This document shows positions 25,965-59,526 of a stretch of 64,000 nucleotides of DNA, in pieces. A program made the translations under genes and the position numbers. The notes under the pieces are model-generated. The model searched no databases. It was not told where the DNA came from and worked only from the letters and a program-made list of their open reading frames with translations. The stretch covers positions 62,001 to 126,000 of the forward strand of contig JAPOQN010000042.1 of NCBI GenBank assembly GCA_026710655.1, in the 5' to 3' direction. The stretch's first letter is position 1. Every line of letters begins with the position of its first letter. This stretch comes from Chloroflexota bacterium. Its GTDB lineage: Bacteria > Chloroflexota > Dehalococcoidia > Tepidiformales > Tepidiformaceae.

Positions 25965-26765
25965 CTACTGGAAGCGGTGGGGGAGCGGGTCGACGCGAGG
26001 CGGCAGGGCGACCTCGTGGTCGAGCCAGATACCGATGTTCTCGCCCGTACGGCCGTCGGGGCCCTCCTCCAGGAGGTCCACGAGAAGGCCCGCGATCTGC
26101 TCGGGGCGCATCCAGCGGTCGAGTAGCTCCTGCGGCGGCGTTATGCCGAGGGCGCCGCGAATCATCTTCGAGTCGGTGGCGTCCATGCAGAAGGCGTTCA
26201 CGCGGATGCCGTCGGAGGCAAGGACTCGGGACCAGGCCTGGGTGAATCCGTTAATGCCCCACTTGGAGGCGTCGTAGACGTCCATGCGGGTGCCACCGCC
26301 GGTGTTGTAGCCGGGAGGCGGGCAGATGTGGTCGGTGGCGATGTTGACGATGTTGCCCCCGCCCATCTCGGCCATGTGGGGGGCGATGGCGCGCCCGCAG
26401 AGGAAGACGCCCTTGAGGTTCGTCCCGACGAGGACATCGAAGTCGTCCACGGCCTGGTCCCAGGGGTCGGTGGGATAGGTGGCGCGCCAGGTGCCGGCGT
26501 TACTGACCATCGTGTGGATGCGCCCGAAACGCTCGATGGCGGCATCGACGAAGCGGCGCACGTCGGCGGGGTGGCTGACGTCGGCCTCGGCAGCCATGAC
26601 GCTGGCCCCGTCTGCTTCGAGCTCGGCAGCGAGATCGTGGAGGGGGGGGGCGATGTCGCAGAGGGCGAGGGAGACGCCCTCGCCCGCGAGAACGCGGGCC
26701 ATGCCAGCGCCGATGCCGTTGGCGGCGCCGGTGATGATGGCGGCCGTGCCTTCGAGCAACGTCAC
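25965..26765 (-). CDS. Short-chain dehydrogenase/reductase (SDR)
   Basis: A 266-residue Rossmann oxidoreductase. GTG 26765 overlaps the preceding selenoprotein stop by GTGA. TGAANGIG (residues 12-19) binds NAD(P), DVSHPADV and SNAGTW follow, and YDASK supplies the catalytic Tyr and Lys. The serine usually found before the Tyr appears as Thr/Asp in IATDHIC, so the active site is slightly unusual. An insert (PPPGYNTGGGTRMD) precedes the Tyr. The coupling to the selenoprotein genes suggests a shared role in redox or detoxification. Confidence 0.88.
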   Translation of the reverse strand: MTLLEGTAAIITGAANGIGAGMARVLAGEGVSLALCDIAPPLHDLAAELEADGASVMAAEADVSHPADVRRFVDAAIERFGRIHTMVSNAGTWRATYPTDPWDQAVDDFDVLVGTNLKGVFLCGRAIAPHMAEMGGGNIVNIATDHICPPPGYNTGGGTRMDVYDASKWGINGFTQAWSRVLASDGIRVNAFCMDATDSKMIRGALGITPPQELLDRWMRPEQIAGLLVDLLEEGPDGRTGENIGIWLDHEVALPPRVDPLPHRFQ

Positions 26766-27802
26766 GCGGGGGTCTCGATGGGGCGGTAGAAGGCGTTCCC
26801 GGCCTCCGACCACTCGGTCACGATCTTCATGAAATCGTCGCCCATCGGGTCGAGGCCGCGGATTGGCATCGAGCCGCGCCTGATGGTGAAGTCGTGCGGG
26901 GCGAGTTCGCCGGCGCGCACGTAATGGGGCTCGGCGTCTTCGGTGTGCCCCTGCTGGGAGAGCCACCAGGCGAGCGTGAACTCCGCGCGGGCCTCCTGCT
27001 CAGCGGCCGTCGGAAGCGTCTGGGCGGCCCGGGTCTCCGCAGGCGTCATGGCCGGCCCCTCGCCGCGCACCCAGGCGCGCAGGCGCTCCAGGTGCGCCTC
27101 GGAGTCGATGCCTGTCATCTCCTTGAAGTCGTTCGAGCCAAAGGCGACGTCGTTGGGGCGCGCGATGCGGCCCTCCTCGTCGATCCAGAGGATGGTCGGG
27201 ACGTTGATCATCCCGTAGAGGTCGGCCACGAGGTGCTCGGTGTCGATCAGGCTGGGGTGGGCGGGACTGGCCGCCTCGATCCACTCGCGCGCGTCCTCGG
27301 GCGAGCGCTCGATGGCGACGGTGATGACGGTGAAGCCCTCATCCTTGAGCTCCTCGTAAACCTTCTGCCAGACCGGCAGGTCGTAGCGGCAGCCTCACCA
27401 GGAGGCGTAGGCGACGAGCAGGACCTTCTTGCCACGCTGGTCTCCCAGGGAGTGCAGGTTGCCGTCGAGGTCGGGGAGGGTGAAGTCGGGAGCATCGAGG
27501 GAGGCAAGCGCGTCGCCGCGCTCGTGGTGGGAGGCGCCAAGCGAGGCGACGGTGTGCTTTTCGTCGGTCACGAGCGGACGCTGGAGGGCGCCGGCAAGAA
27601 CGCCCAGGTCGAGTCCGTCCTCGCGCACGAGGGCGGACTGGTCGACGGGGATGCACATGGGGCCCTGACACAGACCCTCGGGCTGCAGGTCCCAGCCGAG
27701 GGTCTCCTCGAGTGCGCCGGCAGGGATGGCAGGACGGGCGGGGTCGGCGACGGTTATCTCGTCGCTGCGACCGTCGTGGAGGAGGGTAAGGGTGGTGGCC
27801 AT
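26762..27802 (-). CDS. Thioredoxin-fold selenoprotein (copy 1), Sec136 encoded by UGA
   Basis: The frame runs from ATG 27802 through an in-frame TGA (27397-27395) to 26762, giving 346 residues with Sec136. The N-terminal domain (residues 1-95) has GWDLQPEGLC and a CxxxxC pair (Cys45, Cys50). A redoxin domain starts APDFTLPDLDGNLHSLG and reaches VAYASW-U-GCRYDLPVW, so UGA sits where the attacking cysteine of thioredoxin-like proteins lies, with Cys138 two residues on. A cis-Pro loop (INVPTILWIDEEGRIARP) and a TPR-like C-terminal helix pair follow. A SECIS hairpin lies right after UGA. Its paralogue, with the same length and the same UGA position, is directly upstream. Confidence 0.9.
27365..27397 (-). 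promoter_or_regulatory. UGA codon with downstream SECIS-like hairpin (copy 1)
   Basis: After TGA (27397-27395) come 15 bases, then a CTGCC/GGCAG stem (27379-27375, 27369-27365) with loop GGTCT. The GGUCU apical loop and the distance of about 20 bases from UGA match the bacterial fdhF-type SECIS bound by SelB. Confidence 0.85.
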
Positions 27803-27895
27803 GGGGGCACTCCCAGGTAAGCAGGTGGCTGGGATTCTACGGGGCGGGTACGGACGACGCGCGGAGGTGGGAGGGCGCCTCGACTCGATCGGCAA

Positions 27896-28936
27896 TCAGG
27901 GGCTGTCCTTGAGCGGGCGGTAGAGGGGGGTGCGGGTCAGCGCACTCTTGACTGCGATCTTCAGGAAGGCGAGACCCATGGGATTGAGGCCGCGGGTGCG
28001 CATGGAGCCGCGCCTGATGGTGATGTCGTGCGGGGCGAGTTCGGCGGCGCGCTCGTAGTGGCGCTCGGCGTCGTCGGCGTGGCCTTTCCGGGAGAGCCAC
28101 CAGGCGAGCGTGAACTCGGCGCGCGCTTCCTGATCGGCGGCAGTCGGGAGGTCCTGGTGGGCACGGACCTCGGCCGGGGTCAGGGCGGGGGCGGCGCCGC
28201 GCACCCAGGCGCGCAGGCGCTTGAGGTGCCGCCGCGAGTCGAGGCCCGTCAGCAGCTTGAACCTGTTGGAGGCGAAGGAGGCGTCGTTGGGGCGGGCGAT
28301 GCGGCCTTCCTCGTCGATCCAGACGACGGTGGGGACGTTGATCATCCCGTAGAGGTCGGGCACCAGGTGCTCGGTATCGATGAGGCTGGGGTGCTTCGGG
28401 CTGGCCGCCTCGATCCAGGGCCGGGCGTCCTCGAACGATCGCTCAATACCGACCGTGATGATGGTGAAGTCCTGATCCTTGAGCTCCTCGTAGACCTTCT
28501 GCCAGACCGGCAGGTCGTAGCGGCAACCTCACCAGGAGGCGTACGCCACGAGCAGCACCTTCTTGCCGCGGTGGTCGCTGAGGGAGTGGAGGTTGCCGTC
28601 GAGGTCGGGGAGGGTGAAGTCGGGAGCATCGAGGGAGGCAAGCGCCTCGCCGCGGTCGTGGTGAGAGGCGCCCAGGGAAGCGACGGCGTGCTTCCCGTCG
28701 CTGACGAGAGGACGCTGGAGGGCATCGGCCAGCACGCGAAGGTCGAGGCCGTCTTCTCCGACTAGCTCATCCTGGTCGACGGAGATGCACATGAAGTCCC
28801 GGCAGAGGCCTTCGGGCTTCAGCTCCCAGCCGAGCGTCTCCTTGAGGGCCTCGGCGGAGATGGCCGGGCGGGCAAGGTCGGCGACCTCGATCTGGTCCGC
28901 GCGGCCATCGTGTAGCAGGGTCAGCGTCGTATGCAT
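27896..28936 (-). CDS. Thioredoxin-fold selenoprotein (copy 2), Sec136 encoded by UGA
   Basis: This tandem paralogue of the gene at 26762-27802 has the same length (346 residues). ATG 28936 opens the frame, which reads through TGA 28531-28529 to 27896. Domain order is identical: N-terminal Cys pair in PEGLCRDFMC, redoxin domain APDFTLPDLDG, YASW-U-GCRYDLPVW with Sec136 and Cys138, cis-Pro loop INVPTVVWIDEEGRIARP, and a TPR-like end. The two copies differ throughout by scattered substitutions, yet both retain UGA and SECIS, which argues for selection on Sec and against a sequencing or assembly error. Predicted role: peroxide or disulfide reduction; substrate unknown. A tRNA-Ser gene lies 62 bases upstream. 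Confidence 0.9.
28499..28531 (-). promoter_or_regulatory. UGA codon with downstream SECIS-like hairpin (copy 2)
   Basis: TGA (28531-28529), 15-base spacer, stem CTGCC/GGCAG (28513-28509, 28503-28499) and loop GGTCT. It is the same as in copy 1 despite differences in surrounding codons. Confidence 0.85.
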
Positions 28937-28994: not shown

Positions 28995-29083
<89 letters not shown>

Positions 29084-29502: not shown

Positions 29503-29967
29503 GTGCGGGCGCTCGTGCAGCGCGTCAGCCGCGCCAGCGTGCGCGTGGACGGCGAGGTCGCCGGCGCCATCGAGGGCGGGTTCCTCGTGCTGCTCGGCGT
29601 GACGCACGGTGACGATGAAGCGGTGGCGGAGGCGATCGCGCGCAAGGTCGTGGGGCTGCGCGTGTTCGAAGACGGCGAGGGACGGATGAACCTCGACCTG
29701 CAGGCGGTCGGGGGCGCGGTACTGTGCGTGAGCCAGTTCACCCTCTACGGGAGCGTCAGGAAGGGGAGGCGCCCCTCGTTCACGGAGGCGGCGGAGCCCG
29801 AGCGGGCGGAGGTCCTGTACGAGCGCTTCTGCGCGGCCGTGGAGGAGACGGGGGTTGCGTGCGAGCAGGGGCGGTTCGGGGCGCACATGGAGGTCGAGAG
29901 CGTGAACGACGGGCCCGTGACATTGCTCATCGACAGCGCGGAGCTGGAGCGTCCGCGCCGCGCTTGA
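29503..29967 (+). CDS. dtd: D-aminoacyl-tRNA deacylase
   Basis: A 154-residue DTD that removes D-amino acids from mischarged tRNAs. GTG 29503 starts it, six bases after fmdB. The active-site motif SQFTLYG is at about residue 79 and the C-terminal dimer motif NDGPVTLLID ends the protein. Length is normal. It is followed by proS in the same direction, so both concern tRNA quality. Confidence 0.95.
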   Translation: MRALVQRVSRASVRVDGEVAGAIEGGFLVLLGVTHGDDEAVAEAIARKVVGLRVFEDGEGRMNLDLQAVGGAVLCVSQFTLYGSVRKGRRPSFTEAAEPERAEVLYERFCAAVEETGVACEQGRFGAHMEVESVNDGPVTLLIDSAELERPRRA

Positions 29968-49407: not shown

Positions 49408-49676
49408 GCGACCGTGCACCCGTCTTTGGAGTGAATACCAGGCTTGCACCGCGCGAGCCAACTCGGACCCGGTGAGTCTGCGGCGCCCGGAGCGTTCTAC
49501 TTATGGCTGCTTCCTTCCGGACCTGACCAGGTTCGTAGTGCTCCGCCGCGCAGGACCAGATCGTCAACGCCGCTTTGCGAAGGCAGTCCCCGGAGAGACA
49601 ACCCCTCGGACGGGAATTCAGCCCCGCTTGAGCGGATTGCGGGTACAGGGCACCGCTAGCTCCCCGCCTAGCACGG
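49408..49676 (-). ncRNA. ffs: Large bacterial SRP RNA (Alu plus S domain)
   Basis: Read on the minus strand, the 5' end has GGCGGGGAGCTAGCGGTGCC and CTGTACCCGCAATCCGCT, the Alu-domain words of the Bacillus scRNA. The S-domain hairpin has CCTGGTCAGGTCCGG followed by AAGGAAGCAGCC. The 3' end has GGTGCACGG. About 269 nt in total. The ends are estimated to within about ten bases. Confidence 0.92.
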
Positions 49677-58899: not shown

Positions 58900-59526
58900 T
58901 CAACCGCTCGCGGGCTTGTCGCCGCCCTGGCCGAGCCTGGGCTCCGTGCCCGCAATCAGGCGGCGGATATTGGGGAGGTGCATGTAGTAGAGGAAGGCTA
59001 CGACCCCGAGGGCGTACCAGGCGATGACGGAGTCGAGCTCCCCGGCGATGGCCAGTCCACCGGTGACGCCGACTGCCGCGATTCCGCCGACGAGCGACAT
59101 GACCGACGCCATCCGTGTGATCGCGACGGCGATGACACCGGCGCCGAAGATCGCGAGACCAAGGAGCGGGACGATGCCGAGCAGCGTGCCAAGCGCCGTC
59201 GCCACGCCCCGGCCACCACGGAAGCCGGCGAAGACGGGCCACACATGTCCCGCCACGGCCGCTCCCGCGCCTGCCATTGCGACACCGACGTCGTCGAAGA
59301 GGAAGCGTCCGATGACGACGGGCGCGGCGCCCTTGCCCACATCGACAAGGAGGCCGAGGACCGCGGGAATGGGCCCGGCGGTGCGGAGGATGTTGGTCGT
59401 GCCGGTCTTGCCGCTGCCCAACTCGCGGATGTCCTTGCGCAGCCAGAGGTAGCCGAGGACAAGCCCAGTGGGGATCGAGCCGAGCAGGTAGCCGATGGCG
59501 ACGTTGCCGAGGTACTCGCCGATCAT
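58900..59526 (-). CDS. plsY: Glycerol-3-phosphate acyltransferase PlsY
   Basis: A 208-residue membrane acyltransferase. It starts GYLLGSIPTGLVLGYLW, has LGSGKTGTTNILRTAG and the loop FAGFRGGRGVATALG, all PlsY signatures. ATG 59526 overlaps the der stop by ATGA. It takes acyl-phosphate and glycerol-3-phosphate to start phospholipid synthesis. Confidence 0.95.
   Translation of the reverse strand: MIGEYLGNVAIGYLLGSIPTGLVLGYLWLRKDIRELGSGKTGTTNILRTAGPIPAVLGLLVDVGKGAAPVVIGRFLFDDVGVAMAGAGAAVAGHVWPVFAGFRGGRGVATALGTLLGIVPLLGLAIFGAGVIAVAITRMASVMSLVGGIAAVGVTGGLAIAGELDSVIAWYALGVVAFLYYMHLPNIRRLIAGTEPRLGQGGDKPASG

Follow-up and report, generated by a model that had tools for sequence, protein, structure and literature searches.

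Does an in-frame UGA end a gene, or is it read as selenocysteine? The question is raised by two adjacent genes of a Chloroflexota bacterium (Tepidiformaceae; GenBank assembly GCA_026710655.1). They lie in a stretch of 64,000 nucleotides (contig JAPOQN010000042.1, positions 62,001 to 126,000 of the forward strand) that was analysed as a whole and is called the window here. Under table 11 both genes appear interrupted, so that ordinary gene calling would cut them. A first-pass annotation, made from the letters, had described a tandem pair of 346-codon frames broken only by TGA at codon 136, and the coordinates, both ends included, and the translations bear this out. The features are the following, in window coordinates.

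25965 to 26765, minus strand: SDR-like gene (short-chain dehydrogenase), an open reading frame whose family was named from the look of the sequence.
26762 to 27802, minus strand: coding sequence of copy A, predicted paralogous selenoprotein of 346 aa with Sec136.
27365 to 27379, minus strand: hairpin CTGCC-GGTCT-GGCAG of copy A, a putative bacterial SECIS separated from the UGA by a 15-nt spacer.
27395 to 27397, minus strand: codon 136 (UGA) of copy A, predicted to specify Sec and the sole in-frame break.
27896 to 28936, minus strand: coding sequence of copy B, predicted UGC-type thioredoxin-fold selenoprotein of 346 aa with Sec136, from the frame and profile matches.
28499 to 28513, minus strand: hairpin CTGCC-GGTCT-GGCAG of copy B, a putative bacterial SECIS separated from the UGA by a 15-nt spacer.
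28529 to 28531, minus strand: codon 136 (UGA) of copy B, predicted to specify Sec and the sole in-frame break.

Copy A begins 93 nt downstream of copy B on the same strand. Each frame has 346 sense codons, with its single in-frame TGA as codon 136, and the context YASW-TGA-GCRYDLPVWQ is common to both. The paralogues had also been said to have diverged elsewhere while keeping the TGA and the hairpin, and indeed the two proteins are 76% identical and the hairpin letters are the same. The window was scanned for TGA codons with coding-like codon composition on either side, over flanks of at least 40 and at least 50 codons (thresholds of our own choosing). Four sites were obtained: the two copies, a site at 29965 before a proS-like frame and one at 58902, the last two of which resemble ordinary gene junctions. 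Elsewhere in the window a bacterial large signal recognition particle RNA was found (49412-49676, minus strand, 188.2 bits). On the evidence set out below, the two paralogous genes appear to read UGA136 as selenocysteine, for which we put the probability at about 95%; the figure refers to the selenoprotein reading and not to the chemistry of the products.

The first-pass annotation had named selA, selB, selD and a tRNA-Sec with anticodon UCA as the genes to look for, and had regarded a genome devoid of Sec machinery, or homologues with a true stop or a residue other than cysteine at the TGA position, as evidence against selenocysteine. All four genes are present in the genome itself (3.14 Mb in 71 contigs, 93% complete): a single tRNA-Sec that exceeds the Rfam cut-off (71.1 bits, anticodon TCA), SelA (428.5 bits), SelB (300.2 bits against a cut-off of 242.25) and SelD (345 bits). 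The SelD match (G000:C8:56278-57213, L029) has one in-frame TGA within it, and SelD of this genome is probably a selenoprotein too. In the class sample SelA was matched at E 1e-20 in 256 of 393 genomes, namely in 41 of the 49 that carry the UGA form of the family and in 215 of the 344 others (Fisher one-sided p 0.002, a value that ignores relatedness). At this threshold nine of the 51 genomes with the family gave no SelA match, and eight of these nine are UGA-bearing. This was examined as a possible refutation and tRNA-Sec was looked for in them, so that the tRNA-Sec search covered the genome itself, these nine and G353, a genome with a Cys homologue. A tRNA-Sec of at least 70 bits was found in seven of the eight UGA-bearing genomes. 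The eighth, G212 (90% complete), gave neither a SelA match nor a convincing tRNA-Sec, its best match being 45.5 bits. The two genomes with Cys homologues differ from each other: in G043 (96% complete) SelA gave no match and the best tRNA hit just reaches the 47-bit cut-off, and in G353 (78% complete) SelA is present and no tRNA-Sec match exceeds the cut-off. Weak matches to the tRNA-Sec model were rejected as evidence, and three of them (L002, L003 and L005) are tRNA-Ser according to ARAGORN. The same caution follows from the window itself, where a tRNA-Ser with anticodon TGA (28998-29083, minus strand), just upstream of copy B, reaches 38.9 bits with the tRNA-Sec model. G158, which gave no SelA match at E 1e-20, has two strong tRNA-Sec matches (C81:821-913, 82.1 bits; C25:10-102, 80.4 bits).

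A scan of contigs yielded six related loci, titled Dehalococcoidia or Chloroflexi MAGs, and all six have the tandem pair in the same order with a TGA in both genes. The class sample, in which homologues were accepted at E 1e-30 or better, contains 60 of them in 51 of the 393 genomes; the six assemblies of the contig scan are its six same-genus matches, and the two results are thus not independent. At the Sec/Cys column 58 of these 60 have TGA and two have TGC (Cys), the latter (L057 in G043 and L060 in G353) with continuous frames. In a phylum sample of 400 genomes 13 were matched, two of them already counted, which adds 11 homologues from other classes and brings the column to 69 TGA and 2 TGC among 71. 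Since the search profile has Cys at the Sec column and the threshold is strict, these counts may miss distant Cys homologues. Where a stop stands in the column it is TGA and no other stop codon, and the second stops in the rows from G132, G329 and G267 are the ends of their own genes. Hence the column holds UGA or cysteine in all the homologues found, and Cys homologues at the TGA position, which the first-pass annotation had suggested should be sought, do exist. Within the genus sample the pair was present in seven of nine genomes; the other two have neither copy, though both have SelA. In a tree of the 71 rows the A copies and the B copies from the seven genomes fall into a clade each, with support of 97/95 and 100/99, and the two clades are joined at 100/100. 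The separation implies that the duplication predates these seven genomes, and under midpoint rooting it would follow the split from the nearest single-copy relatives.

As to the signal for decoding, the claim that each TGA is followed by a 15-base spacer and a bacterial SECIS hairpin stood in part. The spacer and the letters were confirmed and comparison supports the element, whereas free folding prefers other helices. A published bSECIS model asks for a loop of 3-9 nt, a stem of 4-16 bp, G among the first two bases of the loop, a distance of 16-37 nt from the UGA and an energy at or below -7.5 kcal/mol (PMC13188914). The geometry is that of all 69 UGA homologues, which have a 5-bp stem of standard pairs, a 5-nt loop with a G in its first two bases and 20 nt between UGA and loop. 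On energy the results are mixed: the hairpin of the window has -6.7 kcal/mol alone and -8.2 in its own context, and the bare hairpins of the 69 homologues range from -4.0 to -6.7 kcal/mol, above the published -7.5. Free folds of 48-nt segments (-13.2 and -11.9 kcal/mol) and of 55-nt segments (-23.3 and -18.4) consist of overlapping helices in preference to the bare hairpin, and against shuffled sequences copy A folds better (z -2.02) and copy B no better (z -0.20). Folding was therefore rejected as proof of a SECIS element. The GACC/GGUC helix can form in only 27 of the 69 homologues, against all 69 for the five-pair stem.

Because free folding picks overlapping helices, the case for the SECIS element rests on comparison instead. 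Over codons +1 to +10 after the UGA, the 14 genus sequences show 39 synonymous differences out of 819 (4.8%). The share is 28.6% for the gene as a whole, 24.8% for the 13 codons that precede the UGA and 31.1% from codon +11 to codon +30. Broken down, the counts for codons +1 to +10 are 0 of 189 in copy A, 18 of 189 in copy B and 3 of 63 between the paralogues of one genome. Such near-frozen synonymous sites are as expected of an overlapping SECIS element. In all 69 homologues the third base of the stem's Leu codon is G, against 1022 of 2327 for the other Leu codons of these genes, and a two-sided change is seen in two rows only, where the outer stem pair goes from C-G to T-A. The stem is mostly fixed by the protein sequence L-P-x-W-Q, and the value of 1.3e-27 that the homologue stem comparison gives assumes independent sequences and is not taken as a probability. 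The SECIS hairpin is thus a predicted element supported by comparison, not by free folding.

These observations bear on what else the TGA could be. If it were a true stop, each gene would give an N-terminal protein of 135 residues, with reinitiation perhaps yielding a second protein from the C-terminal part; the table 11 reading does end at the UGA, and its list of open reading frames has a GTG-initiated frame of 155 aa downstream in both copies. Such a cut would, however, go through the active site of a thioredoxin fold. It is also hard to reconcile with the codon composition, which is coding-like both upstream and downstream of TGA136, with the continuous frames of the Cys homologues L057 and L060 and with an interrupting codon that is always TGA (69 of 71 homologues), and we hold it to be very improbable. 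Just as improbable is the insertion of a different amino acid, through near-cognate readthrough as Trp or Cys or through a change in the code. Against it stand the use of UGA as the terminal stop of copies A and B, from which it follows that the codon is not reassigned throughout, the full Sec set of the genome, and the synonymously frozen codons after the UGA, which plain readthrough would not obviously need; what speaks for it is that Trp and Cys codons share the UG- box and that two homologues have Cys at the column.

An assembly artefact, in which both the second copy and the TGAs would be spurious, comes to mind since the window comes from a draft assembly of 71 contigs and the relatives are MAGs. 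But the same pair with the same order and the same TGAs recurs in six other assemblies, and the separate A and B clades place the duplication before the seven genomes, which makes this explanation scarcely credible. Selenocysteine at UGA136 is accordingly the reading that is followed below.

In the encoded proteins, with C written for U, residues 103-214 match AhpC-TSA (pfam00578) with 68.9 and 63.7 bits at a cut-off of 26. The best structure alignments are with DsbE and ResA over residues ~103-215 (profile E down to 1e-14), and a fold search with a structure model also gave ResA, TlpA and DsbE as best matches. The active site of this model is of low confidence: the mean pLDDT is 64.3 at full length and falls below 50 at residues 133-140. 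In the alignment with 3gl3, the CxxC of ResA/DsbE has its first Cys opposite U136 and its second opposite Cys138, and one of the two residues between has no counterpart here. The first-pass annotation had placed the TGA at the attacking redox cysteine, which agrees with this alignment and can be refined, in that the predicted redox site is UxC (here UGC), with one residue fewer than CxxC or UxxC. Its middle residue can apparently vary, as L058 (in G070) has U-S-C in place of U-G-C and the Cys homologue L057 has C-S-C.

The N-terminal 90 residues contain a CX4C formed by Cys45 and Cys50, and GxC-x4-C occurs upstream of the Sec/Cys site in 70 of the 71 rows, the exception being cut by a contig end. 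This part has no Pfam match. The N-terminal domain was also modelled by itself, with a weak result (mean pLDDT 64.6). A structure search with this domain had no match that reached E 0.001, and the names it returned, all weaker than that, were dismissed as noise. A presumed likeness to the N-terminal domains of copper amine oxidases was set aside, as no search supports it. The C-terminus is weakly TPR-like, below cut-offs. By eye, the N-terminal sequence contains neither a signal peptide nor a hydrophobic anchor, and for this reason the proteins of both copies are probably cytosolic.

Insertion would then proceed as follows. Ribosomes would reach UGA136, and the hairpin 15 nt downstream would recruit SelB with Sec-tRNA(Sec), so that selenocysteine is inserted and proteins of 346 residues are formed, probably in the cytosol. 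Sec136 would take the place of the first, attacking Cys of a ResA/TlpA-like thioredoxin fold and would pair with Cys138 in the shortened U-G-C site, which may cycle between selenol and selenenylsulfide. As to chemistry and substrate, we infer a role as thiol-disulfide reductase or thiol peroxidase. More speculatively, the conserved N-terminal CX4C pair might hand electrons to the selenenylsulfide; the conservation of this domain suggests a redox partner in a family that has a predicted function only.

The SDR-like gene follows copy A directly, its inferred GTG start overlapping the copy A stop in the letters GTGA. Six relatives (L012-L017) have GTGA or ATGA at this junction; in one of them, L016, the SDR motif pattern was missed, yet the GTGA junction and the sequence that follows are the same. 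The pair of copies presents itself as an operon-like duplicated example among UGC selenoproteins. It is conceivable, if rather unlikely, that the family is a three-part cytosolic selenoenzyme in which the N-terminal CX4C relays electrons to U-x-C, with A and B of this genus as specialised partners co-translated with an SDR oxidoreductase.

Compared with known systems, copies A and B have the thioredoxin-like domain in common with ResA/TlpA/DsbE (3gl3, 1st9, 1jfu). They differ in having UxC where these have CxxC, in showing no N-terminal hydrophobic signal or anchor, and in their extra N-terminal CX4C domain and weakly TPR-like C-terminus. Their best NCBIfam match is NF041054 (WAxxUGC_long, ResA-like WAxxUGC motif-containing protein, an equivalog of 354 positions), with 265.1 and 265.4 bits (E about 1e-78), the best stretch being residues 24-225 and a weaker match of about 28 bits covering the C-terminal part. 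They were not filed as this equivalog, since 265 bits lies below the curated cut-off of 300. The WAxxUGC motif of the family reads YASWUGC in the window, and both copies fall within a 23-row clade (100/100) that has Y, H or W at this place; 48 of the 71 rows begin with WA.

The UGC type itself has been catalogued before. A survey of 2008 (GOS) lists a 'Prx-like (UGC-containing)' selenoprotein with 46 selenoproteins and 855 Cys homologues (PMC2398784), a 'UGC-containing Prx-like protein' is listed in PMC9312934, and a 2026 review lists a 'UGC-containing TlpA disulfide reductase family protein', cd02966 (PMC13188914). Copies A and B share with these entries the pfam00578/TlpA-type domain, the UGC site and the status of predicted selenoprotein. 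Going by description, which is how they were compared, the available text of these sources mentions no tandem pair, SDR neighbour or N- and C-terminal domains. The survey does mention neighbouring selenoprotein genes, of other families (PMC2398784). In the available portions of the literature searched on UGC-type and Chloroflexota selenoproteins, no tandem UGC pair was found, nor a description of tandem duplication in one genus, of the overlap with an SDR-like gene or of a conserved CX4C domain at the N-terminus with no match in Pfam. The share of Cys forms is far lower here (2 of 71) than in the table of the survey (855 Cys against 46 Sec), perhaps as a result of the strict threshold. Copies A and B are almost certainly real selenoprotein genes of this already catalogued UGC family, to which they add natural comparisons of UGA with Cys and a clear RNA-level footprint of constraint.
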